Shown here one piece after another: positions 35,437 to 54,144 of a stretch of 64,000 bases of DNA (position 1 is the first letter of the stretch; every line of letters starts with the position of its first letter). Source of the DNA: Pseudomonadales bacterium (GTDB taxonomy: Bacteria > Pseudomonadota > Gammaproteobacteria > Pseudomonadales > DT-91); assembly GCA_013215055.1 (NCBI GenBank), contig JABSRQ010000013.1, positions 1 through 64,000 of the forward strand, written 5' to 3'. A program made the translations under genes and the position numbers. Below the pieces are notes generated by a model, which had not been told where the DNA came from, ran no database searches, and saw nothing but the letters and a program-made list of their open reading frames with translations.

Positions 35437-35555
35437 ATTTCAATACCTATAAATAAAATGGTAAAATCGCTAAAGTTTTTATTTAAGTGGTCGATAAAAT
35501 AACTATTCGGTTCAATCCACTTTTGTCAGCTTTTTGTCATCTTCGCTTGTAACCT

Positions 35556-35571
35556 CGCAATGGCTGTGCCA
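35556..35571 (-). promoter_or_regulatory. Sigma-54 promoter of flgBCDEFGHIJKL
   Basis: The minus-strand site TGGCACAGCCATTGCG has the full TGGCAC -24 and TTGC -12 boxes with correct spacing. It lies just outside the duplicated segment that begins at 35593. Confidence 0.9.
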
Positions 35572-35592
35572 ACAAAAAATATTATTTATTAT

Positions 35593-36036
35593 TCATAGAC
35601 TTATATTTTCCTTGTTTTAAAAACGTCAATTTTTTGAGAAATCCCATGCCGCTATGCGGCAATAAAATGGCTAGAAAAAGTATGCCTTTCCGGTGGCATG
35701 TTCTATGCATACTCTCTTTATAAAGGTCTAATAAACTTTTACATGACAATTAAATGACGATCAAAGATGGAGTCAAAGGTGAGAACATGAAAAGAGTAGC
35801 CACGCTCTTTATTGTTTTTTTAATACGGTTACCGAGCAATATAAACGCCGCTGAATATCAGTCGATAGAAAGCATTACCTCGGCAGCCAGAGTCCAGGTG
35901 AAATCTCAGACCCGACTTATGCCTTATCAAAGTCTGGAAATTTCTTCGGTACAAATAGATCCACGCCTGCATCTACAACAATGCCAACACAAGTTGCAAA
36001 CCTTCAGCCCTGCTTATCAACGTAAAGAGCGCAGGA
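35593..36036 (+). repeat. 444-bp direct repeat, left copy (flgA promoter plus 5' half of flgA)
   Basis: This segment matches 49920-50363 in the same orientation without net length change. By eye about 11% of positions differ. It covers the upstream region beginning TCATAGACTTATATTTTCC, a GCCGC-TAT-GCGGC hairpin, a sigma-54 promoter and the first part of flgA. The match fades at CGTAAAG(A/G). The two copies enclose the giant-protein insertion. Confidence 0.93.
35694..35709 (+). promoter_or_regulatory. Sigma-54 promoter in front of the truncated flgA copy
   Basis: TGGCATGTTCTATGCA keeps the -24 box and GG-N10-GC spacing, with one base different from the intact copy at 50021. It should still fire, sending a transcript through truncated flgA and the pseudogene behind it. 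Confidence 0.78.
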
Positions 36037-36897: not shown

Positions 36898-39800
36898 TTA
36901 GAATTGGTAGGTCACCAAAAAGTTTGTATCACCCATCGTTAGTTGGTACGGCTGAGATAGGCTAAATGTTAGCTCACCATTATCGCTAAGGTAATTTCCG
37001 GTCGCGATGCGTTCCGAGTCTTCCGCAATGCCATTATTATTAGCATCTCGATATAGTGAGACATTACCTATATCAGTCGTTTCATTGATTGAACCTGAAG
37101 CATTGATGGTCAATTCGTGAACCTGAGCATCGGTTGAATCGCTGGTGATATAAAAACTAAAGACCACTACTTCACCGTCGCCTCTCGAAAAAACGGTGTC
37201 GTCAAGTTCATTGTTTGAAGCTGAAACAATGGGCTCGGGAATAATCTGTACAGCAACGCCACCTGGATCAACTATTTTGCCATTTGCTTCATTGTCTGCA
37301 TCGTTAGCTCCGCCGTCCTCAATGGTGAGTTCAACACAAAAGTGTCCTTCATTGAGCCCAGGAAGGTATGAAGCGTCACCGGGTGATGGACACACACCGG
37401 CTTCTCCAGCGGTTGAATAGAGTTGGTTATTGGCGTCAATCGCAAAATCCTGCCAGCCGTTAGTTGGATTTAGCTTACGATAAGAGGCATCCGCTGGAAT
37501 CGCCTGATGAAGCGGAATGACCAGCTGCACGCTACTACCTACTGGCGAGACATGACGAATTTCAAAATCAAATAATCCGCCGACGTTGCTAAAGTCTGCA
37601 TCGTTGCCGTATTCCATAAACAGATCACTATTGGATAAGGTTGTAGCGCTGACCAGTGCGCCGCCATCGGCATCAATCAATGCAACCGAACCCAATGACA
37701 ATGACAGGCCGTGTTCAACTTGCATTAGGTAACTATGATCATTTTCGCTGGCGCTTCCTACCAGCTGCTGCAACCAGTTTGAGCCTTCGAACTGGTCAAG
37801 GTAATCAGCAATACCGTCAAAATCCGAATCTTGATGGCCCTCAGCCAGATCACTGATGCCATCGCCATCTGAATCTAAATTGGCGGAAAGAGTAGGATAG
37901 CTTTGGATAACTCTCAGATTGAGAGTCGCGCTGACAGTTTCACTCGGAAAACCGTCGTCCGTAACGCTCACTTCGACAGTGTAAACGCCGATACTCACAT
38001 TCGCAGGATCAAAAGTCAGTGTCATCGGATTGTTATCGCTGTCCGCCAGTAAATTATTCGTCGCGCTCCAGTCAAATACGTGTGAGTCGGCTGGGTTTAA
38101 ATCGTCGACTGCTACGCTAATCGTCACCGGACCCTCGGCGGCACTAACGGTCGTTACCGGTAGGCTATTTTGCTCTGCGCTCAGGGTTAAGCGGGGCGCA
38201 ATATTGGCTTCGGTAATGGTCAGTAGATGTTGCGCGTTTACGCCCATCACCGCATTGACCGGATCGGTTAAAGTGACGATGAGTTGCTCATCACCTTCAA
38301 CGATCTGATCGTCGACTATCTGTAGCACAATCTCAGCTTTAACGCCTTCTTCGATAATAACCGTTCCCGCTAGTTCGGAGGATTGTTCGGTGACATTCGA
38401 GTCGTTAGAAAGTGCATAATCCGCCAAGTCGACCGTACCGCTAATACTATACGGAATCAGTACAGGGTAGACCGGCGCATTGCCAGATAAAGTTATACTC
38501 ACCGTAACCAGGTTGTCTTCGCTGCTGATTTGAGTTTTGCTCAACATAACCTGAGGATTAATATGAATCGTCTGAGTTGCAATAGCCCGGTTGCCCGCTG
38601 AATCCTCGGCTAACCAGTTAACCAGATGATGTCCAGGTGGCAAGTGGGTACTACTCAGATTAACTACCGCTACGTTACCGTCGACATTATCGCTAGCGCT
38701 GATATTAGTCGTCGGAACAGCTGTTAACGGACCGCGCGAATCAAGCGTGATGTCTGTGGTTAAGCTGATCACCGGTGATTCGGTATCGGTGGCGCTGAGA
38801 TATTCATTCAGATTCGTCACGCCATCATTATCCGCGTCCAGATCGGCATCGGCAGGATCGTTTGGATTGAGGCCGTGATCAACTTCCCAACCATCGGGCA
38901 TATCGTCATCGTCGCTATCGGCATTATTTGGATCAGTCTGAGCCACGTACTCTTCACGGTTAGTCAAACCATCGTTATCCAGATCTTCCATCGCATCGCT
39001 GGCATTTTGCGGATCCAGTCCGAATTCAATTTCCCACACATCGGGCAATCCATCGGCGTCGCTATCGGCGCTGTCACTCATTGCGGAAGTCACGAAACTG
39101 ACAATTTCGCTGGTGATGGTTTCTCCCAGCAGGTTGAAGGCCGTCACCTGCGCATAATAAATAGTCGCCGGATCAAGTTTCGCCAGATTGACTTGATGAT
39201 TGATGTCAGCATCGATGTTGGCTTCTTTATCCAACAATTCATCAACGCTTCGACCATAGCTCACCTGGCCAAACGCGCTAAGCGAATTAGTCCACTGAAT
39301 CTCGGCAGAGTCTGTTGAAATAAAGTTGATGGTTGGCTGCGCGGCAAAATTGGGTACCAGTAAATTATTGACACTGGCCGAGTTAAAGTTGATCGCCGGG
39401 AATTGCGTCTGGTTGGCGTCTATATCGGCTAACACATAGCGTACTTCGTAATCGCTGTTGGGGGTTAATCCGTGGAGCACAAACAGATGCGATTGCTTTT
39501 CTTCTAATGCACCCACTGCCAACCAACTTGTGGTTCCAACAAGTCGATACTCAACCAATGCCACTGATAATTCATCAGTCAATAGCTTCAGCGTCGCTAC
39601 TTCGCCAAAACCTTCAAGCACTGGCATCGCTGTGGTGACTGGCGGGGTGGTGTCAGCTTCGGCTGCGTTAGCACTTGTCACTACATCACCATTGATAAGC
39701 TGACTGGCGGTAAAACCATGATGATCGGTGGAAAAGGCGGTACAGACATAAGTGGTATTGGCTTGTAAGCCGGTCAATGTCAGGATGTGCTTTTTGGTTC

Positions 39801-42800
39801 GTTTAGCGTTGCTCACTTCCAGCGTACTCGATGTGCTGGCGCACACCAAACGGGCATCGGCATTGACATCGGTGACCCAGTAAACCGTTAATCTATTGTC
39901 GGTCAGCTTTTTAATTTCGACCTCCGACATAAAGTGTGGATTGCCCTGATGGCCTCTCACTTTAGTGCGGAATGACATGATTTCGCTCATCGCCAGATTG
40001 CCTTCTGCATCGGATGTCTGTACCTGGAAATAATAAATCGTATCGGGCTGCAAACCGGTTACCGGCAGATTATGGAAAGTTTTTAATCCATTTTTGCTTT
40101 CGATTTGATCCAGCGCATTGGCTGAAGTACCGATCACCAGACGCGTAGTAGCCGGTTCACTGGAATCCCATCGGATCACCACGCTTTGATGGGTGATATT
40201 CTGGATCAAGGGGCTACCGATAATAATAGGCGCGGTGGTGTCAGGCGTTGCCAAAGTGGTAAAGCTGATCGGCTGGCTAATCGTCGGCCCATTACCGTGC
40301 GCATCTGTTGATGAAACCGTTAAGGTGTAAGTAGTTTCAGGCGTGAGATCGGCTAATGGCATCGAATGCAGCTTGACTAAACTATCGTCACTGACCACGT
40401 GGTAACGCTCGGCGTCATTGTAGGAGACGCCACTGGTGGAGGCTTCATCGGTGGTCCAGATAACCGTTGCGTGGGTATCGGAAATATCGATCACCATCGG
40501 GATCAGTTGAATCACCGGCGCTGTTACATCGGGTGCGGGTAAAGTGGTGACAATGAGCGGTTGACTCACGGTCGGTCCGTTACCTTGCGCGTCGGTCACT
40601 TCGGCGACCACCGTATAAGCGGTATTCGGCGTTAAACCATCAATCACCAGTTGGTGGCATAGCGCCAATGTAGGCAGCGAAAATAAAGTGCTATCCACCG
40701 TTATAAATCCAGCCACCGGCTCATCGGCACACAATGACAGGGTGAATTGCTCATGCGTGATATTGGACGCGAGCGGACCTTCGAGTATTAACGGCGCTCG
40801 ATAATCCGGGGTAGCCAGAGTCGTAAAGCTGGCACTCAAGGTGTCGCTGGCTCTGTCATCTTTATCTACGGAATGTACGTCTGCGAGATAAAGCGTTTCC
40901 GCATCAAGATCAGTCAAGACGACGCTGTGATGGGTGGTTAACGGCGAAGTCTGATAACGACGTCCATTTGATAAATCAACCACACTGGTACCAGGTTTAT
41001 CGCTTAGCCATTCAACCACGGCAGAGTGATCGGTGATATGTTTCACAAAAGGCCCTGCAATTATTTCCGGCACGGCAAAATCGCTGTGAATTAGCCAGAT
41101 ATCTTCGCTGGTTTCCTGCGAGATAGAGTGGCTCACATTGGTGATCGCAAAACCTGAAAGTGCAGGCGGATTAACTGAAATATCGGTTACTTGATGGGTA
41201 AATAGGCCAAAAGCAAACGTACCATTGCTAGCTGTAACCGCATTGCTGTTGGCGCCATCACCACTGTTTTCCATATAATAGCTAATCGAGTTTTCCGAAT
41301 AGGCGTGATCAATTCTCAATTTGACGCCGGGAACGATGACACCGTTGGCATCCATAGCTTTACCGGATAAAACTGACATCGGCAGTATCACATCAATTGA
41401 CGTATTGGCGAAGACGCTAATATTTTTAGGCTGGTAATATACCGCAGCAAAATCTGGCACCGGATAAGTTGTTACTACATCTGTACCGTCAACTTGATTC
41501 ACCGGTTGTAGATAGGGCCTCAATTGGTAGTTACCCGCTGCCACTTTAAATTCGAAATAACCATTGGCGTCGGTCAGCACCGGCGCATCGGCCAGTTGAC
41601 GATTGCTCTGGTTGTGCACCGTGACCATCGTATTGTCTATAGCATTGCTTTGTTCATCTTTCAGGTAACCCGATAGTGTGAATGGCTGAGTCAAGACAAA
41701 AGTATCGGTGGTATCACCAGTGATTAAATAATCGTTGATGAGTGTGGCGCTAACCACTTTGTTACTGAGTGGCGGAACAAAATTAATATCGGTCGCCTGA
41801 TCGGTAAATATCGCCAATGAAAACTCGCCATTAGCATCGGTTTTTGCAAGACTCACTAGCGATTTCCCCTGACTCTCCAGATAATAACCCGTATCACCGT
41901 TTCCATTCGGTTTATGCGCGATATGGCTGATAGTCACTCGAGTATCTGCAATCGGCGAGCCGTTTGCATCGGTGGTGGTGCCGCTTAAAACAGCCATTGG
42001 TAAGACTACATCCTGTAGCGTCGCCCCAGCGACTACGACATCTTCTTCAGCGTATAAAACCGTCGCAAAATCAGGCAGTGGATAAACCGGTCTCTGGCCT
42101 TCGCCGCGTCCAAATGGATTTAGCTGGGGTTTAATTTTATAGCTGCCGGTTTCAACCTGAAATTGGAATAAGCCATTGGCGTCGGTGTAAACCGCCTGCC
42201 CCACTTGATCGCCGCTGTCCTGCTGATGCAAGCTCACTTTAGTGTTATCAATCGGGCGCCCCTGAGTATCTTGTAATACACCAGAAAGAGAAACACCTTC
42301 TACCAAAGTAAACGTTTCACTAGCGTCAGCTGCCAGGCTGTAATCACTGATAGTGGTGACGGCCAAATCAATTCTGTTTGCCGGCGGCGTTAATAGAATA
42401 TCCACCGTTTGATCGGTAAACAGGGCAAATTCAAAGTCGCCATTAGCATCGGAAAGCGCGTTACTTGCTGCGTTGGTGGCATAGTTTTCAAGGTAGTAAT
42501 CCTGGGTTGTGGTTGAGAACTGATGACGGATCGCTAGTCCTACACCTGCAACGGGGTTACCCAGGTTATCCAGCGTTTGACCAGACAGTAATGCAAACGG
42601 CAAGGTGACATCTAAAGTTGTGTCTGCGCTCAATTGAATGTTTTGCGGGCCGTGGAAAATGGCGGCATAATCGGGCACCGGATAAGCCGGAATGATTGGC
42701 CCTGTATCTGGATTAATAGCTGCCGGGTTAAAAACATCCACCAGTGGTCGTAACTTATAGGTTCCCGGCGCAACTGAAAACTCAAAATAACCGAGCGTAT

Positions 42801-45800
42801 TGGTACGAACACTATTGCCCACCTGATTGCCGGTGGTTTGCTGGTGTAGACTGACCTGGATGTTGTCAATCACACGCCCCTGGCTATCTTTAAGATAACC
42901 GGACAGCTTTAACGCATCACCAATCAACGTAATTAAATGGACTACGTCGCGATCTGCAAGGCTAATTGGTTGCAGGGTAGGACTACTTAACCCACTACTA
43001 GCCGGTGGGGTAACGCCGATAAAATAGCCACCGGCGAGCATATTTTCGAACAAATAGGCACCATCAGCAGGCGTGGTGACCGAATCTAAAAATTGTTTCT
43101 GGTTGTTGTAAATGGCCACTTCTGCGCCTGTAACAGGAATACCTTCACCGCTAATAATTCCGCTCAGGCTGATGCCTACGGGCACTACCGGTGGCGGCGT
43201 TATAATTTCTGGAACATCACACGCATCGCCGATGCCGTTATTGTCTCGGTCGGCTTGATCGGTATTGGGGATCAGCGGGCAATTATCGATATCGTCCAGT
43301 ATGCCGTCATTATCAAAATCATTATCCGGAACTAATGGTGTGTCACACGCATCGCCTATGCCATCATTGTCAGTATCCAGTTGGTCGGGATTAGCATTCA
43401 CTGGGCAATTGTCGACGTCATTTAAAATGCCGTCTTTATCAAAGTCGTTGTCGATCACATCGGGCGTATCACAGGCATCGCCTGCGCCGTCATTATCGCT
43501 ATCGAGTTGATCTGGATTAGGCGTTAATGGGCAATTGTCCACCTCATTTAAAACACCGTCATTGTCAAAATCATTGTCAAAATGAAGCGTGGTGAAGTTG
43601 ATGATTTCACTGGTGGTTTTTTCGCCGAGAATATTAAACGCATCAACCTGCAGGTAATAAACGGTATTGGCATCCAGGTTGTGCAGAGTGAGGCTATGGT
43701 CGCTGACGTAAGAATTATCCGCACGGTGGTTGACTAAATTAGTGGCTACTTTACCGTAACGAATATTGCCGCTAGATGGCTGCAAAGTTCTCCAGCTAAC
43801 GGTAGCACTGTGTTCACCAATGTTGCTGATAACCGGTTGCAAAGTAAATATGCAATCAGGGATCGCCTCTGGCGCAACTGTACTAAAATTACCCCCTGGG
43901 CATTGTGTGCTATTACCGGCGATATCGGTCAGGGTGACCTGTTGTTCGTACTCCGTTTCAGGCAGTAATCCGGTTAACAACAGTGCGTCCTGAGTGGCTA
44001 GGTTGAGCGTGCCGTTTTGCAACCAGTCGGCGCTATTAAGCTGGCGATAATTGACTGCCGCGGTGGTCAGTTCATTTGAGCCCCAGCTAATTTGCGCGGA
44101 ATCGACAAAACCGGTCACGGAAGGCTCTGGGGTACACACTGGCGCTTCGGTATCGGGTATATCTGCCGTTGTGCCTCTTAGTGGCGCGCTGACGATATTA
44201 CCGTTGATATCTGATGAATAGACTCTACAGGAATAAATTGTGCTGGCATCTAAACCCGTCAGCGTTAGCAGGTGTGATGTAACTCGCTGTGGATCACTAA
44301 TTTCGAAAGTAATTTTCTCAACCGGTGGTGGTGGTGTGGGTATCGTGGGTATCTCAGTATCACCATCGAATTCGACATTAAGCAATAAATTGGGTGAACC
44401 ATTTAAGCTGCTGATTTTATTTGCAATCGCATATCCCTTAAGGCTGAATGTGACCTCGGCGGGGCTTGCATCGGGATGTGCCTGTAAATATAGCGCGATC
44501 GCGCCCGCTACATGGGGTGCTGCCATCGATGTACCGCTAATGGTATTGGTGCCGCCGTTACTCCAGGTGGAAGTAATACCTGAACCTGGGGCAAATATAT
44601 CTATGCATGAGCCCCAGTTGGAAAAGCCGGAACGGCTATCGGCTGAAGTTGACGAGGCAACGGTAATGGCCGCTGGGACTTTGTTAGGTGAGCCAGAGCA
44701 GGCGTTAATATTTGAATTACCCGCTGCAACCGCAAATGTAATGCCAGCGTTAATCGCTCTATTGACGGCGGCGTCAAGCGCGGCAGAGTTGCCTCCACCC
44801 AGGCTCATATTAGCGACCGCAGGAAATTTGGCATTAGCGGTTACCCAATCGATACCCGCGATCACACCAGAACTGGTACCTGAGCCGCTACAGCTTAGAA
44901 CTCTTATTGCAGTGAGTGTTACATTTTTCGCTACACCCCAGGTAGTGCCACCAACGGTGCCAGCCACATGTGTGCCGTGTCCATTACAATCGGAGGCGTC
45001 AGCATCGTTATCGATGAAATCCCAACCACTGACGGCGCGTCCGCCAAAATCGCTATGGGAGGTGAGTATGCCGGTATCGATGATATAAGCATTAACACCA
45101 CTACCGTCCAGCGCGTAGTTGAAATCATTGTTGAGCGGTAAGTCTGCCTGGTCGATGCGATCCAGGCCCCAGGTCGCACCATTTTGAGTCGCAGTAGCAT
45201 GCATAATCTGGTCTTGCTCTATCAGCAAAATACGCGGATCTTGGCGTAGTGTGTGTAACTGTGCGGCATTCATTTTAAGCACAAAGCCCGGAACGCCATT
45301 TGAATAGTGGCGTAAAGTTTTGCCTTTGACTTTGCGGGAAATTTCACCCGCCAAGGCTCTAACAGAAGTCTTGCGTTGAGCGCGGGAATGTCTTGCTGAT
45401 AGTCCGTTTGTCGAAACGCTGGTTTGTTCTTTCAGTAGAACGATATATTGATCGGCTATCGATTGAGTAGGCGCAACCGAATAAAATGGTGCCAATTGGG
45501 CGGTAGCTGAAAAAGAGTCACCCGAAAAAGCGTCTGCTGTGCCTTGACTGCCTTGCTCTGCTTCACACACCAGGCGACTATCGGCATCAAGATTGGTCTG
45601 CCAACTGACAGTGAGTGAATTGGTGCTGGCATTTTCGACATCAGGCCCTGCGATAATGCTAAACGTTACCGGTATTGTTCCTGGTTTAAGCGTCTTAAAT
45701 GACAGCACATCGCTGGTGACTGTATTGCCGGCAAGATCAGCCGATTCGACTCGGAAAAAATAGATTGTATCCGCCGACAGGTTGAAGACAGGTACACGGT

Positions 45801-48800
45801 GTTCGGTGTCAAATCCAGTAAGGCTAAATGTTTGATCAAGCGCATTATCGGCTAGCCCCAATAAAACCCGATGTGAAGCTGATTCATTGGTTGTCCACAG
45901 AATATCAGCGCTGTTAGTGGTAATATTTTCAACAAAAGGGCCGGCGATTATTTGTGGCGCGGAGGTATCGGGCAGAGCCAAAGTGGTGAACTCAACTGGC
46001 GCAGAAATACTCGGCCCATTGCCAGCGGCATCGGTGGATGAGGCGGTCAAAGTATAAGTGGTACTGGCGCTCAATCCGCTTAAGTACATGGTGTGAGTGG
46101 TCACCAGCGCTTCGTCTGCTAGCGAATTGTCGCTGCTGCCATCGGAATAGGAGACGCCGCTGGTCGACGCTTCATTGGTGGTCCAAGACACAATCGCGGT
46201 TGATTGGCTAATGTCGGTAACGATCGGTCCTGTTATCTCCGGTGGTGATATATCCAGATCAAATAGTGTGGTCACGGTTAATGGTTCGCTGGTTACAGGA
46301 CCATTGCTGGCAATATCGCTGATTGCGACAACCACGGTGTATTGGGTACGCGGCGTTAGACCGGTGACGACAAACTGATGACATATAGCAGCGCTGTCTA
46401 AAGTGAAATCAGTAGTAAGCAAAGTGCCAGTGGTATCGACGGTAATAATCGCGGTGACCGGCTCGTCGGCGCAAAATGAAACGGTGAATTTGTCGTAGTC
46501 AATCGAACTGATGGTTGGCCCGCTGACAAAGCTAGGTAAAGTCGAGTCGGGTAGAGTCAGGGTTCTAAAATTAGCCGGTAACGGCGTAGACGTTAAGCCA
46601 TTGCCATCGGTAGCGGAAACCATAGTAGCGTAGTCGGTATCGGGGGTTAATCCGGTTAACAAGACTGAATGAGATGTCGTTAACGGATCCAGGGTAAAAG
46701 TAGCACCACCGGCAATGACTACCGTACTGTTGGAGGCTTTATCAGTCTCCCACTCGATCACTGCTGACATATCAGTTATGTTTTTTACTAAGGGGCCTGA
46801 AATAATTTTTGGCGGCGCTAAATCTACCGGTGGAATTGGGTCTGTGGTAAAACTAATAGTGTCACTACTGGTCATCACACCTTTAGAATTGAATGCGTCT
46901 ACTTGTAAAAAATAAGTGGTTTCGGCTTGCAGATTATTTAAAACAACCGCATGAGAAGCTTTAAAATCAGAGTCCGATTCAACGTCATCCATTGTGCTGT
47001 CTGTCAGACCAAAGCGAACCTGGCCGAGGGATACGCGCTCGGTTGACCAATTAACCGTGGCGGTAAAATGTCCAATATCGGTAACAAAGGGCTGGATTGA
47101 AAAAACCGGTGCGGGCAGTTCTGGTGAAGGTTCTTCAGGCGTAGTAGCTTCTGGGCCGGAATTAAATTCACCCGAGGCACAATCGGCACTATTGCCGACG
47201 GCATCGGTCAGGCTGACTTGATGCTCATAATCAGTATCGGGTGACAGTCCGGTTAATAGCCCAAAACCTGTTTTGGTTAATGTTGAGTGACTGGTTTTCA
47301 ACCACTGACTAGCCCCTTTTTCGCGGTAGTTAACTGTTGCGGTGGCCAACTCATCACTTTGCCAGCTAATTTCGGCAAAATTAACAAAACCTTGCGCGAT
47401 TGGTGGCGCGATACACTGCGGTGGGGTCGAATCAACTTCCTCGGTGGTTAATGCACCGAACATTATGCTGGCGACCTTGCCTGAAATATCCGTTGAATAA
47501 ATCACACAACGATAACCGGTATTAAACTCTAAACCGATCAGCGTAATAATGTGATTTTTGCTGAGTTCAATTTTATTGACTTCACTGCTGCCGTTGGTCG
47601 ACTCACAGATCAAACGACTATCGGCATACAGGTTGGTTCTCCAACTTACAGTAATGCTGTTGCCGGTTAATCTTTCGATCACAGCTTGTGAAATGATTTC
47701 CAGGACGCTAGACGATCCCGCTGTACGGGTAGTGAATGATGTGACGTTACCGCTTGTTTTATTAGCAGCGAGATCGCTAGATTCGACCGCAAAATAATAG
47801 GTGATTGCTGGTAAGAGGTTGGTGAGGGCTAAGTGATGTGAAGTTGAGAAACCGGGAGATGTTTCTACCCGACTAAGGTTATTGGCCGCTGTGCCGATAA
47901 AAACAACGGTGGATGAAGATTCATCGGTTTGCCAGCTTATCATCGCACTCGTATTTGAGATATCTTCCACTAACGCGCGGCCAATCAATAATGGCGCAGC
48001 GGTATCGGGTGCTGATCTAGTTACAAACTGGCTTGCTTGAGGCTGGGTTGCACTATTGCCAGAAGCATCTTTTGATGTAACCGTTAAATGATAAGTTGTA
48101 CTCGCCGCTAAACCCGTGATTTGGGCTGAGTGCTCGGTGACCAGAGTGGTATCGTTCTGCACTCGATAATGAGTACCGTTATTAAATGAAATGCCGCTGC
48201 TAGTGGGTTCATTTGTGGTCCACCTTACTACTGCAGCAGCGTCAGATATATCGGTAATAGTAGGACCCGCGGTAATTAACGGTGGATTCAGATCGGCTGC
48301 GGCCAGTGTTTTCACGCTAGTGACCAGACTTGCTGTTGGGCCGTTGCCGGCGATGTCGGTAATCTGCGCTGAAACGGCATACGACTGATTAGAATTGAGA
48401 TTGCTAATAGTCAGCTCATGGCAACTAGCAAGCTCATTGAGTAAGTAATCAACATTATCGACAACAAACGTCCCGCTGACCGGTTCATTAGCACAAAAGG
48501 CCATTGTGATTTGAGTTTCAGCAATGGCGGTTATTGTTAGCGGTTGAATAAACTGAGGGGCTAAAGAATCTGCATTGCTCGCGGTCGTAAATGTAGCGCT
48601 TGCCGTTGTTGAGCTATTATTGTATTCGTCAGTCGTATTAACCTGAACGCTGTAATTTGTGCCTGGAGCTAGATCTGTAATCACTACGCTGTGTTGGGTT
48701 TTCAGTTGATCATAGGTAAATGTCTCACCGCCGATTAGTTGAGTCACACTGGTCACAGGCTCATCGGTTTGCCATTCAATCACGGCCGTATGGTCGGTAA

Positions 48801-49560
48801 TATTCGTTACATAAGGCCCTGCAATAATTTTTGGATTCAACTGGTCAACAAGCATTAATTCCTGATCAAGATTATGGCTGCTGTTAATAGCATAATTTGA
48901 ACGTACAAAAGCACCAAAGCCGCTTGCAACAGGTGGTGTATAGGTAATGTTGTACAAACAGTTGGGGCTACCCGAAGCGATGCAGGTGTTTGTAGAAAAT
49001 AGCAACATAACATAGTTGCCATCAATATCGGTGCGAACACTGCCGTTATCATGGGTTAAACTTTGTTGTGATAGTTCCAGTAGCGGGCCTTGCTCGGGGC
49101 CAGCCCAGCTGATGTTGGTTGCAATATCGACATTGGCAATGGGGCTGTTATTACTATCAACCACTTTTCCGGACAAAACCACAAAATCAAACTGGGAATC
49201 ACGGATTGTATCGGTGATAACCACAAAATCTTCAGTACTAATGATAGTATCAGGCGCGCCTACTAGGGAAACATCTGACGCATTAAAATAAGAAAGAAGT
49301 ATAAAATTGCCCGGCGAGACTGTCCACGCATAGGCGCCATCAGCGCCGACCTTTATGATATCGCCAACCTGAATAAAACTACCGTTTTGTAATACTTGAA
49401 TAAGCCTTGCATTAGCGCCTTCTATTGGATTGCCCAGCTGGTCTTTGACCACGCCGCTGAGATTTTCAGCTTGAAGCGCAAAAGAAAAAATCGAAAATAG
49501 GAAGGCGAGGACAATCGCTGAGATCCTGGCTTTAATAAAAGCCAATAGTCTTATAATCAT
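36898..49560 (-). CDS. Giant secreted FN3-repeat protein with a nested subtilisin-like protease
   Basis: The 4220-residue protein has a signal peptide (about 1-31) and an N-terminal carboxypeptidase-regulatory-like module. Three copies of a seven-module FN3 cassette follow at about 245-905, 915-1990 and 2829-3495. In copy two, a complete S8 protease with I9 propeptide occupies about 1341-1746 inside the fifth FN3 module; the triad is Asp1495, His1528, Ser1678 ([20 protein letters not shown]). Three thrombospondin-3 calcium repeats lie at about 1990-2115, carboxypeptidase-regulatory-like repeats at 2120-2835, EF-hand-like DxDxDG repeats at 3495-3600, a Calx-beta domain near 3672-3790 and a choice-of-anchor-U-like end at 3935-4220. 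The last residue is Phe. It is likely a surface adhesin/protease. The start has a GGAGAG ribosome site, and the leader holds a riboswitch-like element. Confidence 0.9.
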
Positions 49561-49649
49561 GCAGTCTCTCCAAAGAGAAGAAATTTTTGATTTTAACGAA
49601 CTAAGGACAACCGCTAGGACAAAACAAGATCGCGTAGTTAACTATTATA

Positions 49650-49748
49650 GCTTGTTCTGGCAACCCCGCCGTCATAGGTGAAAAATTCACCCTTAGACCG
49701 GTAGCTTTTCGGACCTGGTCTTTCAATCCAGGCAGCCCCAATTTAAGC
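49650..49748 (-). promoter_or_regulatory. Cyclic-di-GMP-I (GEMM) riboswitch candidate in the giant gene's leader
   Basis: Read on the minus strand the element has the GEMM layout. Outer helix P1 pairs GCUU..UUGG with CCAG..AAGC. P2 is CCUGG/CCAGG closed by a GAAA-type loop (AUUGAAAGA). Then comes GAAAAGCUACCGGUCUAA, close to the family's GCAAAGCC.CCGGCCUAA core. P3 has CCG/CGG and an inner GGGUGA/UCACC stem. The GGCGGGGUUGCC end matches the conserved GCGGGGUUACC-type segment. It starts about 4 nt after the predicted RNA start and ends 90 nt before the ATG. A CUUGUU at 49623-49628 can pair with AACAAG of the P1 3' strand, a possible expression platform. Confidence 0.85.
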
Positions 49749-49758
49749 AAAAAAGAAA

Positions 49759-49787
49759 ATTAAAATTTCACATTTTAACCCTGTAAA
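49759..49787 (-). promoter_or_regulatory. Sigma-70 promoter of the giant protein gene
   Basis: On the minus strand TTTACA and TTTAAT are separated by 17 bp. The RNA would start near 49752, at the 5' edge of the riboswitch. The rest of the 49561-50113 interval holds the riboswitch, a GGCTTA/TAAGCC palindrome at about 49901-49913 and the right direct repeat with the flgA promoter; no gene is seen. Confidence 0.65.
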
Positions 49788-49919
49788 ACTAATTGCTATA
49801 TAACATTGAAGTCTGATAAACGGTGCACCAGTGTCTGGGGAAACTAGTACAGCTTCCTCGTAACTAATTGTAATAATAAGTACAATTGAAAATTATAGGG
49901 GCTTAATAAGCCTTATACC

Positions 49920-50363
49920 TCATAGACTTATATTTTCCTTGTTTTAAAAACGTCAAATTTTTGAGAAATCCCATGCCGCTATGCGGCAATAAAATGGCTC
50001 GCCAAAGTAAGTCTTTCCGGTGGCATGTTCTGTGCATACTCCCTTAATAAAGACCTAATACTCTTTTATACGACAATTAAATGACGGTCAAAGATAAGGT
50101 CAAAGGTGAGATAATGAAAAAAGTAGCCACGTTCTTTGTTGTTTTTTTAATGGTATTGCCAAGCACTATAAACGCCGGTGAATACCAGTCGATAGAAAGC
50201 ATTACCTCGGCAGCCAGAGTCCATGTGAAAACTCAAACCCGACTTATGCCTTATCAAAGCCTGGAAATAACGGCGGTACAGATTGATCCACGCTTGCATT
50301 TACGCCAATGCCAACATAAATTACAAACCTTCAGCCCGACTTATCAACGTAAAGGTAGGCAGA
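49920..50363 (+). repeat. 444-bp direct repeat, right copy (promoter and 5' end of intact flgA)
   Basis: Matches 35593-36036 in the same orientation without net indels. It runs from TCATAGACTTATATTTTCC through the sigma-54 promoter into codon about 83 of flgA. This copy continues into a complete flgA gene. No inverted ends, integrase or tRNA accompany either copy. Confidence 0.93.
50021..50036 (+). promoter_or_regulatory. Sigma-54 promoter of flgA
   Basis: TGGCATGTTCTGTGCA has a perfect -24 box and GG-N10-GC spacing. It lies 77 bp before the flgA ATG at 50114. Confidence 0.83.
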
Positions 50364-51214: not shown

Positions 51215-51649
51215 ATGAAAAATTCAGCCGCTATAATCAGTAAAGATGCGCAGGATTGTTTACAACATCTGGAATCACTGCATACCATCTTAGAAAAAGA
51301 ACAGGCTTTATTACAGGCCAATAAGTTGGAACAGCTGGATGCTATTACCGGTGAAAAAAGCCAGCTACTGACACAGATTGAACAGCTGAAAACTCAGGTG
51401 CTTGCCCCACAAGCGCAAGATATAAATGCGTTGATTAAAGATAAAATTTTGGCCTTGGCCAAGAAATGCAAACTTTTAAACGAAAGCAATAATGCCATCA
51501 TTCAAATACAGCAGCAGTTTATTCAACAAAAAATCCAAGTTTTATTTGGTTATGAAAAAGAACCAAGCGTAAGTTATGCCGATGCGGTCATGTCACAACC
51601 TCGCCCACAGTCATTATCTACCGCCAATAACATCATTGGTAAAGCTTAA
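51215..51649 (+). CDS. flgN: FlgK/FlgL export chaperone FlgN
   Basis: FlgN (144 residues) is a helical chaperone for the junction proteins FlgK and FlgL. The features are CLQHLESLHTILEKEQALLQ, then LEQLDAITGEKSQLLTQIEQ, and LLNESNNAIIQIQQQFIQQK, as in FlgN domains. An AAGGG ribosome site precedes the ATG. Its end overlaps the stop of the convergent GGDEF-EAL gene by 4 bp. Confidence 0.93.
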   Translation: MKNSAAIISKDAQDCLQHLESLHTILEKEQALLQANKLEQLDAITGEKSQLLTQIEQLKTQVLAPQAQDINALIKDKILALAKKCKLLNESNNAIIQIQQQFIQQKIQVLFGYEKEPSVSYADAVMSQPRPQSLSTANNIIGKA

Positions 51650-54144
51650 ACCTTATTTTTTCTACTCGGTAGCAATGCCGCAGGGTTTTCAGCATTGTCT
51701 TTTAAAAACCCAATGATAGTTTCCAGCGCTTCGGGCCTTTTATATAAATAACCCTGTCCATATTTACACTCTATACCCTGTAAAAAAATCTGTTGATCTA
51801 CCGTCTCTATGCCCTCGGCTACAACCTCAAGATTAAGTTTATGTGCCATAGCAGCAATTGCGGAGGTAATGGCAACATCTTGCTGATTTTGTGGAGTGTC
51901 TTTAATAAAGCTGCGATCAATCTTCAATACATTCACCGGCAGCTCTTTTAAATAACTTAATGATGAATAACCGGTACCAAAATCATCGATGGCTAAATCA
52001 AAACCAATTTTTTGCAATTTTTGTAATAATAAACATTGCTGATCCAGATCTTCCATCAAGGTATTTTCGGTAATTTCCAGCTCCAGCTTTTCAGCTTTAA
52101 TGCCATTTTTATCCATCACCGCCAGTAGTTTATTCACCAGGTTGGCATCTTTAAATTGTTTGGCCGAGATATTAATCGCAATACGAATATGCTCTAACCC
52201 ACAAGCCTGTAATAGCTTTAACGATAAACAGGCCATCTCAAATAACTGTGGCCCCAGCTCTACAATCTTGCCACTTTCTTCCAACATATCGATAAATTCA
52301 AAAGGGGCTAACAAGCCTTTCTCTGGGTGAATCCAGCGTAATAAGGCTTCCATCATCACCACCTTGCCGGTTTTTAAATCGATAATAGGTTGGTAATACA
52401 ATCTAAATTGTTTTTCCTGAATCGCCAGATTGATTTCTTTTTCCAGCAGCAGCGATTTCTGGATTTTTTCATGCATATCCTGATCAAAAAAATGATAACG
52501 ATTTTTTCCCTCCTGCTTAGCCGAATACATCGCAATATCGGCACAGCGCATCAAATCTGTCACGTTATCCGCTTGTTTGGGGCCAATCGCAATGCCCATA
52601 CTGGGTGTTACGGCCATGGCGCTATTATTCACCAGGTATATCGATTTTTTAAAACTCTGCAGGATTTTATCCATCACGGTAACAATATTGACCTGGTTGC
52701 CAATATTATTCAAAATCAACGTAAACTCATCCCCGCCTAAACGTGCAACCGTATCGCTGGGCCTGACATTGTGCCGCAGACATTTAGCCACGGAAATTAA
52801 TAACTCATCTCCGACATCGTGGCCCAGGCTATCATTCACCCATTTAAAATTATCCAAGTCGATAAATACAATCGCAAAAATCGTGTGGTTTAATTGTGCA
52901 TCGGCTAAGGCCATCGCCAAATCATCGGTAAATTTACGCCTATTAGCCAAGCCGGTTAAAACATCATACAGCGCCATATTTTCCAGCTCATCGGTGCGGC
53001 TGCCAATCTCGGTTTCCATTTGCTCTAATTGATAGGATAACGCAATAGCCGTCTCTTCGAATATATCCAATTCATCGTAGGTCGCCTTAACTTTATGTTG
53101 ATCACCTATCGTTTGACGCACCTGCTTAAAACCACTTTTAGCCAATAATGGTAATAACTCAGCCTGCAAGATAATCCGTTGCATCGGTTGGCGTAAAACC
53201 AGAAACAGAGAAACCAACGCAAGCAATAAACCCAAACAAAAAGTGATCACCGCGACCATCAAATTATTACTGATGCTATTTTCTTGTTCGGTAATATCGG
53301 TCATCAAGATCATAAAGTTACTGGATCTTTTGATATCGTCCTTAACCGGTATCGCATAAAAATAAATATATTTATCCTCAATTTTTAAGTGTCGCCCTTG
53401 AGTAAGAAAATCATCAAATGAAATACTTTTACTTAACGCTAATAATTGTTGCTGGTAATCATTTTCACTGGTAACGCCGGCTAAAAAATAATCCCAGATA
53501 CGTAGCGTCTTCTTTTCAAGGCTGGGAATTCGGTCACGTAATAGCGCGATACCAATGTCGTAATCTTGACTAAATTGCACAATAAAGCCATCCAGCGTGG
53601 TTGATATAACCAAGACTCGACTGCTGTTATCCGCCATAAAAATAGGCTGAGCCGCATAAATTCGACATTGCTGCTGGCAGCTGATTAACGTTTTAGGGCT
53701 GGATGCCTGATCCACGTCTTTAACCAAATAATTTAGATCCGCATTTTTAATAAACCCACCCCAATGCAATATTTCATCACTGTCGGTATGGTGTAAAGAT
53801 ATGCTCTCCAGGCCTAGGTCAAACTGCAGGTTCTCCCAGTTATTATCCATAAATTCGATAAGAATATTTTCTTGTAAGCCAATATCAAAGTTTTTATTGG
53901 CGGTAAGCGCCAAGGTTGAGGTTAAACGTAATAAGTTTTTCTTGGCCTGCTGTAATAATGCCGACATATTTTGTTCGGTCGCATGGCTTAGCTGTAATTC
54001 AAGAGAGGCTTGAATATAGCGATAACCAAAAAACAACAGGCATAAATTGATGCTCAATAACACCGTGGAAAACAAGATAAGCGTTTTCCATTTCAGGCTT
54101 AAAAATCGGCGATTTTTCTTATGGGTAGGTGATGCCATCATCAT
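51646..54144 (-). CDS. Membrane GGDEF-EAL protein (c-di-GMP turnover)
   Basis: This 832-residue inner-membrane protein has a first helix at about 20-43, a periplasmic sensor region (about 45-285), a second helix (about 294-318), a linker coiled coil, then GGDEF (motif GGDEF at 470-474, preceded by DVLTGLANRR) and EAL (EALLRW from 599). The EAL domain keeps DDFGTGYSSLSYLKELPVNV then LKIDRSFIKD. Both signatures are intact, so it could make or degrade c-di-GMP; the net direction is not deducible. Three ATGs in a row begin it; the first is used here. No terminator separates it from flgN. It may tune the riboswitch and motility, but this is inference. Confidence 0.92.
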   Translation of the reverse strand: MMMASPTHKKNRRFLSLKWKTLILFSTVLLSINLCLLFFGYRYIQASLELQLSHATEQNMSALLQQAKKNLLRLTSTLALTANKNFDIGLQENILIEFMDNNWENLQFDLGLESISLHHTDSDEILHWGGFIKNADLNYLVKDVDQASSPKTLISCQQQCRIYAAQPIFMADNSSRVLVISTTLDGFIVQFSQDYDIGIALLRDRIPSLEKKTLRIWDYFLAGVTSENDYQQQLLALSKSISFDDFLTQGRHLKIEDKYIYFYAIPVKDDIKRSSNFMILMTDITEQENSISNNLMVAVITFCLGLLLALVSLFLVLRQPMQRIILQAELLPLLAKSGFKQVRQTIGDQHKVKATYDELDIFEETAIALSYQLEQMETEIGSRTDELENMALYDVLTGLANRRKFTDDLAMALADAQLNHTIFAIVFIDLDNFKWVNDSLGHDVGDELLISVAKCLRHNVRPSDTVARLGGDEFTLILNNIGNQVNIVTVMDKILQSFKKSIYLVNNSAMAVTPSMGIAIGPKQADNVTDLMRCADIAMYSAKQEGKNRYHFFDQDMHEKIQKSLLLEKEINLAIQEKQFRLYYQPIIDLKTGKVVMMEALLRWIHPEKGLLAPFEFIDMLEESGKIVELGPQLFEMACLSLKLLQACGLEHIRIAINISAKQFKDANLVNKLLAVMDKNGIKAEKLELEITENTLMEDLDQQCLLLQKLQKIGFDLAIDDFGTGYSSLSYLKELPVNVLKIDRSFIKDTPQNQQDVAITSAIAAMAHKLNLEVVAEGIETVDQQIFLQGIECKYGQGYLYKRPEALETIIGFLKDNAENPAALLPSRKNKV

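Follow-up and report, generated by a model that had tools for sequence, protein, structure and literature searches.

Four known riboswitches, three of them of the c-di-GMP-I (GEMM-I) class, provide a basis for judging the element reported here. The type example of the Rfam family RF01051 is Vc2 of Vibrio cholerae, and a second element from the same gammaproteobacterium, Vc1, resides upstream of gbpA, whose product is a secreted attachment protein (PMC4744006). In Bacillus thuringiensis, the Bc2 element precedes the collagen adhesion gene cap and serves as an ON switch for this adhesin by means of an anti-terminator (PMC4933901). The element associated with pilM in Geobacter metallireducens forms a terminator and an aptamer that exclude each other, wherein the terminator sequesters the C nucleotide that pairs with the ligand (PMC9262584).

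The candidate described here is located in a 64,000-nt stretch of DNA (hereafter called the window), where it occupies the 5′ leader of a gene for a giant secreted protein (Table 1). Like Vc2, it matches the family model over its full length and exhibits the P2/P3 architecture, a GAAA loop, and nucleotides G20, A47, and C92 (Vc2 numbering), but it differs from Vc2 in that its G21–C46 pocket pair is broken by the replacement of C46 with A. The resemblance to Bc2 lies in the placement of a c-di-GMP-I element before a surface adhesin gene and in a predicted ON logic whereby ligand would prevent formation of a terminator. However, the two organisms are distant, Bc2 has been experimentally tested whereas the window element is known from its sequence, and the predicted window terminator is the weaker of the two. 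As with pilM, the terminator and aptamer folds are mutually exclusive and the terminator would take bases at the ligand-pairing C. The pilM element senses cGAMP, whereas the window element retains G20, and therefore c-di-GMP is its expected ligand. Vc1 is likewise a GEMM-I element before a secreted attachment protein in a gammaproteobacterium, although it has no apparent terminator and its target protein is unrelated. We found no reports of such switches in this group of marine bacteria.

On balance we lean, with somewhat better than even confidence, toward a c-di-GMP-I ON riboswitch that would control the giant adhesin/protease gene through competition between a terminator-like hairpin and P1, and whose affinity has probably been lowered by loss of the G21–C46 pair. 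What the sequences show directly is the aptamer with its conservation, the identity of the gene it precedes, the disrupted pocket pair, and pairings that exclude each other; ligand binding, termination, the direction of control, and the affinity shift are predictions.

Table 1. Positions of the riboswitch candidate, its target gene, and surrounding features in the window.
Feature	Position	Strand	Basis or remark
Downstream copy of 435-bp repeat, adjoins flgB	35593..36027		Repeat comparison
Gene for 4,220-aa secreted protein	36898..49560	-	fn3-type, CarboxypepD_reg, and TSP3 repeats, I9-S8 subtilase, C-terminal choice-of-anchor U domain
Shine-Dalgarno GGAG (49571-49568) inside local hairpin UUUCUUCUCUUUGGAGAGA	49565..49583	-	Fold
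Alternative terminator-like hairpin, CAGAACAAG (49659-49651) / CUUGUUUUG (49628-49620)	49620..49659	-	9-bp helix p = 0.004; hairpin energy p = 0.048
c-di-GMP-I (GEMM-I) aptamer, full length (model 1-87)	49656..49747	-	RF01051, 42.1 bits
C92 (49660, ligand-pairing) and C93 (49659, P1 apex; first base of alternative hairpin)	49659..49660	-	Model alignment
A replacing C46, breaks G21-C46 pocket pair; A47 (49708) intact	49709	-	Model alignment
G20 (49737) and G21 (49736), Vc2 numbering, 5′ side of pocket	49736..49737	-	Alignment to model and 44 other aptamers
Lower P1 5′ strand GCUU, pairs with AAGC (49653-49650)	49745..49748	-	Duplex prediction
Possible sigma-70 promoter: TTTACA (49787-49782), 17-nt spacer, TTTAAT (49764-49759)	49759..49787	-	Read from sequence; weak
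Perfect inverted repeat TTAAAAT-GTGAA-ATTTTAA, overlaps possible promoter	49760..49778	-	Symmetric two-sided change in paralogue
Upstream copy of 435-bp repeat	49920..50354		88% identical to 35593-36027
dCache-GGDEF-EAL protein, possible c-di-GMP enzyme	51646..54144	-	Pfam EAL 2e-70, GGDEF 8.8e-47

The first-pass annotation had assigned the leader to the c-di-GMP-I class and predicted that a GEMM-I covariance model would produce a hit on the minus strand at 49650–49748. When we compared the whole window with the covariance models of all families, exactly one Rfam match exceeded its curated cut-off, namely RF01051 on that strand (42.1 bits versus a gathering cut-off of 35, E = 7.3e-5). The E value was 9.2e-7 in a search of 801 bases and 2.0e-6 in a search of the organism's own genome (7.19 Mb), in which the match is one of four above the cut-off. 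The parts of the architecture named at first pass were found, namely P2 and the GAAA loop that caps it, the CCGGUCUAA core, and GGCGGGGUUGCC. Standard pairs occupy all seven positions of P2 and all six of the P3 tip, the loop is of the GNRA type, and the alignment to the family model contains a single non-standard pair among those modelled. The three nucleotides shared with Vc2 that contact the ligand (G20, A47, and C92) are all kept; the numbering of C92 and C93 follows PMC3764141.

A scan of 84,980 species genomes revealed two near-full-length relatives of the giant protein, one in Aliikangiella marina and one in the Kangiellaceae MAG OB12. Both genes are preceded by the aptamer (54.4 and 57.6 bits, respectively), with 102 nt in A. 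marina and 71 nt in OB12 separating it from the ATG. The corresponding distance in the window is 95 nt, close to the 90 nt given by the annotation. Both the c-di-GMP-I assignment and the target gene are borne out, and the orthologues retain the aptamer before the same gene. The orthologue neighborhoods differ from each other and from that of the window (A. marina has an amidohydrolase gene there and OB12 has genes for type III secretion), which indicates that the switch stays with the gene and not with the locus. A shared flgA–flgB site for the orthologues was rejected, as neither has a flagellar or GGDEF-EAL neighbor. Because of the score, the whole-genome E value, and the conservation upstream of the orthologous gene, a chance match was also rejected. 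By its score, architecture, and ligand-contact residues, the window element is a genuine member of the c-di-GMP-I family.

Searches for RF01051 in four genomes of the same genus and one of the same family yielded no match. The N-terminal region of the giant gene is missing from these genomes as well, and therefore this outcome says nothing against the element. A search of 391 genomes of the order for further orthologues recovered only distant domain relatives. Consequently, the comparison of expression platforms rests on four leaders, namely those of the window, A. marina, OB12, and a paralogue (79% identity over 240 aa) located at one end of a different contig in this genome. An alignment of these four reveals that the aptamer is the best-conserved stretch of the leader and that the invariant columns cluster there. 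The paralogue itself (L025 1–1109), at its contig end, is near an IS-like transposase.

The three other c-di-GMP-I elements of the genome precede genes for proteins of 1,055, 807, and 1,041 aa that carry either HYR/Glucodextran_B domains or reprolysin-like and cadherin domains. The window element therefore fits a set associated with genes for large, probably extracellular, proteins. One of these sister elements (L002 1501–1594, contig C425), located upstream of a reprolysin/cadherin protein, has A in place of G20. A G20A change can favor cGAMP. It occurs in six of the 45 aptamers that we compared, however, so the change is not special to this element and was dropped as a sign of a cGAMP switch.

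The target protein has a signal-like N-terminus, many fibronectin-type III and carboxypeptidase-regulatory-like domains, thrombospondin-3 repeats, an I9 propeptide, a subtilase domain (PF00082, 3.4e-39) in which the motifs IDTG, HGTH, and GTSMA are all present, and a C-terminus that matches the choice-of-anchor U domain. From this domain architecture, we infer that the protein is an adhesin. The subtilase is present in the A. marina protein and absent from that of OB12. Both orthologous proteins (L005 21557–22456; L006 14213–15112) end in a glycine-rich, hydrophobic, and basic tail resembling a GlyGly-CTERM anchor. The window protein (36898–37800) has no such tail, and a short lipoprotein-like frame comes after it.

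The gene and its leader sit between flgA and flgB and are flanked by 435-bp direct repeats that share 88% identity and contain the first 95 codons of flgA together with the flgA–flgB intergenic region. The region homologous to the paralogue starts at 49898, immediately inward of the upstream repeat. Given this start point and the flanking repeats, the riboswitch and gene seem to have come in as a single ~13.9-kb unit, as if inserted along with a duplication. A sigma-54-type promoter sequence (TGGCAC-N5-TTGC, 35555–35575) is found upstream of flgB and is absent from the upstream repeat copy. The GGDEF-EAL gene that the annotation had placed nearby is indeed there (Table 1).

A sigma-70 promoter had likewise been proposed just in front of the aptamer. 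The sequence TTTACA-17-TTTAAT can be read at this place and would position the transcription start just before the lower P1 strand, but a consensus promoter scan reported no sigma-70 site, because the scan demands an A that is missing from the second hexamer. The inverted repeat that overlaps this possible promoter reads TTCAAAT-GTGAA-ATTTGAA in the paralogue (L025 1310–1328), meaning that both sides have changed at a symmetric position. The pattern occurs at only two places in the genome, the window and the paralogue, and its reversed control at none. The repeat is likely an operator, that is, the binding site of a regulator, and it is a fair conjecture that control by a protein is superimposed here on the riboswitch.

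We examined the leaders for structures that could convert ligand binding into gene control. Starting at C93, which adjoins the ligand-pairing C92, the window RNA can form a 9-bp helix (CAGAACAAG/CUUGUUUUG) with a 22-nt loop, and this hairpin excludes lower P1. The competing partner noted at first pass, AACAAG (49656–49651) with CUUGUU (49628–49623) exactly 22 nt further on, is part of this helix, whose full length extends the mutually exclusive 3′ strand to nine pairs. P1 as drawn in the annotation stood less well. It can be assembled from GCUU/AAGC plus a short upper part, but its duplex energy is no better than that of shuffled flanks (p = 0.68). The same lower P1 pairing is available in the paralogue, with UUUGC/GCAAA in A. 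marina and UUACU/AGUGA in OB12 at the equivalent place, and in none of the four leaders does this helix surpass shuffled flanks (p = 0.23–0.68).

A helix as long as that of the window within 2 nt of C93 arises in 0.4% of dinucleotide shuffles (p = 0.004), and helices from C93 measure 8 bp in the paralogue (p = 0.08), 7 bp in A. marina (p = 0.08), and 7 bp in OB12 (p = 0.04), where these tests were run after the pattern was seen and the window and paralogue are not independent. The hairpin arms are the same in the paralogue apart from the last pair, and analogous hairpins are present in both orthologues, with an unremarkable energy in OB12 (p = 0.45). Forced-fold energies place the hairpin ahead of the P1-extended fold by 3.1–5.3 kcal/mol in the absence of ligand in all four leaders, a difference that could be reversed by a tightly bound ligand. 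The window hairpin has an A/U-rich stem and is followed by a poor U-tract (UUUUGUCC). A long U run is located directly 3′ of the paralogue hairpin, and the A. marina hairpin has a GC-richer core that is followed by CUUUUUGUU. The latter two are plausible intrinsic terminators, and that of the window is weaker.

The proposed ON switch would operate as follows. Without ligand, the strand that begins at C93 and lies 3′ of the aptamer would pair with CUUGUUUUG to form the terminator-like hairpin, thereby dismantling P1 and the edge of the pocket and leaving little full-length message. When c-di-GMP is high, the ligand would hold P1 and lower P1 together, the hairpin would be blocked, and transcription would enter the gene, such that the surface protein would be made when cells settle. 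The ON direction can reasonably be inferred from the mutually exclusive design in four leaders, the calculated energies, and precedent.

A working c-di-GMP-I switch might instead act on translation initiation, transcript stability, or Rho, or might give an OFF response, and the Shine-Dalgarno sequence within its local hairpin (Table 1) could then be the regulated site. The paralogue carries an identical Shine-Dalgarno hairpin, and Vc1-gbpA is responsive to c-di-GMP although neither a terminator nor an anti-Shine-Dalgarno sequence is visible in it (PMC4744006). Nevertheless, we judge another output of this kind to be rather improbable. The Shine-Dalgarno hairpin is absent from both orthologues, on which ground its sequestration was rejected as a conserved output, and no pairing was found between it and the switching strand, whereas the hairpin from C93 recurs in all four leaders.

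The deviating core base that the annotation had pointed out (GAAAAG where GCAAAG is expected) proved to be the A at 49709, which corresponds to position 46 and leaves G21 opposite A46. The observation extends further than the single base, as it breaks a pair that the paralogue in the same genome has lost by another substitution. G21–C46 is a highly conserved pair beside the ligand that lies outside the formal family definition. Positions 21 and 46 form a Watson–Crick pair in 43 of 45 aptamers (G–C in 42, C–G in one), and the exceptions are the window (G–A) and the paralogue (A–C); C46 itself is likewise present in 43 of the 45. Note that this set, 40 members of which come from other genomes, consists mostly of high-scoring hits, and therefore rare variants may be under-sampled. 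In one aptamer (L015 1501–1575), both pocket-stem pairs are swapped (21–46 to C–G and 22–45 to U–A), which supports their Watson–Crick character.

C46 is among the ligand-binding nucleotides (PMC7288161) and among the key residues in simulations (PMC9049102), and so binding by the window copy may be much weaker. Loss of the pair would probably lower affinity and shift the response to higher c-di-GMP. The altered position lies in the pocket (PMC9049102, PMC7288161), which raises the prospect that ligand selectivity has shifted, for instance to cGAMP or a different cyclic dinucleotide. We consider such a change very improbable, since G20 and C92, the nucleotides that contact both guanines and that are changed to alter specificity, are unaltered here.

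The same broken pair could be a mark of decay. According to this explanation, both copies lost G21–C46 independently after gene duplication and the U-tract of the window eroded, leaving the gene to be expressed without c-di-GMP control, perhaps via the operator-like repeat. The two copies in this genome are the only ones of the 45 aptamers in which pair 21–46 is broken, and the U-tract of the window is weak. The paralogue leader holds a weakened RF01051 copy (27.8 bits, below the cut-off) that retains five of seven P2 pairs and four of six P3-tip pairs; the automatic alignment shifts its 3′ end by one base, which makes the call at position 92 unreliable. Furthermore, the window and paralogue are 87.1% identical in the aptamer and 88.1% identical in the coding sequence. 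The aptamer has therefore diverged as fast as the coding sequence, and no stronger constraint on the leader is visible within the species. Substitutions between the two copies are spread nearly evenly over codon positions (31/21/34), which suggests weak or diversifying selection on the N-terminal region.

Despite these points, we regard decay of the window element as unlikely. Under unconstrained drift, damage to the helices would be expected as well, which is what the paralogue displays, but the window keeps every P2 and P3-tip pair along with G20, A47, and C92. One of these pairs, 5–15 in P2, differs from A. marina on both sides, being G–C in the window, A–U in A. marina, and U–G in OB12, and thus pairing has been kept through change. 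For these reasons, we think that selection still maintains the window copy as a folded aptamer, whose affinity is probably reduced, and that the aptamer of the paralogue is probably failing. More tentatively, and with considerable doubt, both giant-gene copies might be natural pocket variants in which G21–C46 was lost by different changes (G–A and A–C), which would set the response to a higher c-di-GMP level and leave the window aptamer otherwise intact.

If the favored ON riboswitch is correct, it would tie the messenger that underlies the swim-to-stick decision to a very large surface protein, one that includes a protease domain and whose gene is inserted between flagellar ones. For the riboswitch family, the natural C46A change sits in an otherwise intact aptamer, C46 is retained by the orthologues, and the paralogue has lost the partner base instead. 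These RNAs form a series, already at hand, in which the contribution of the pocket pair to affinity could be measured.
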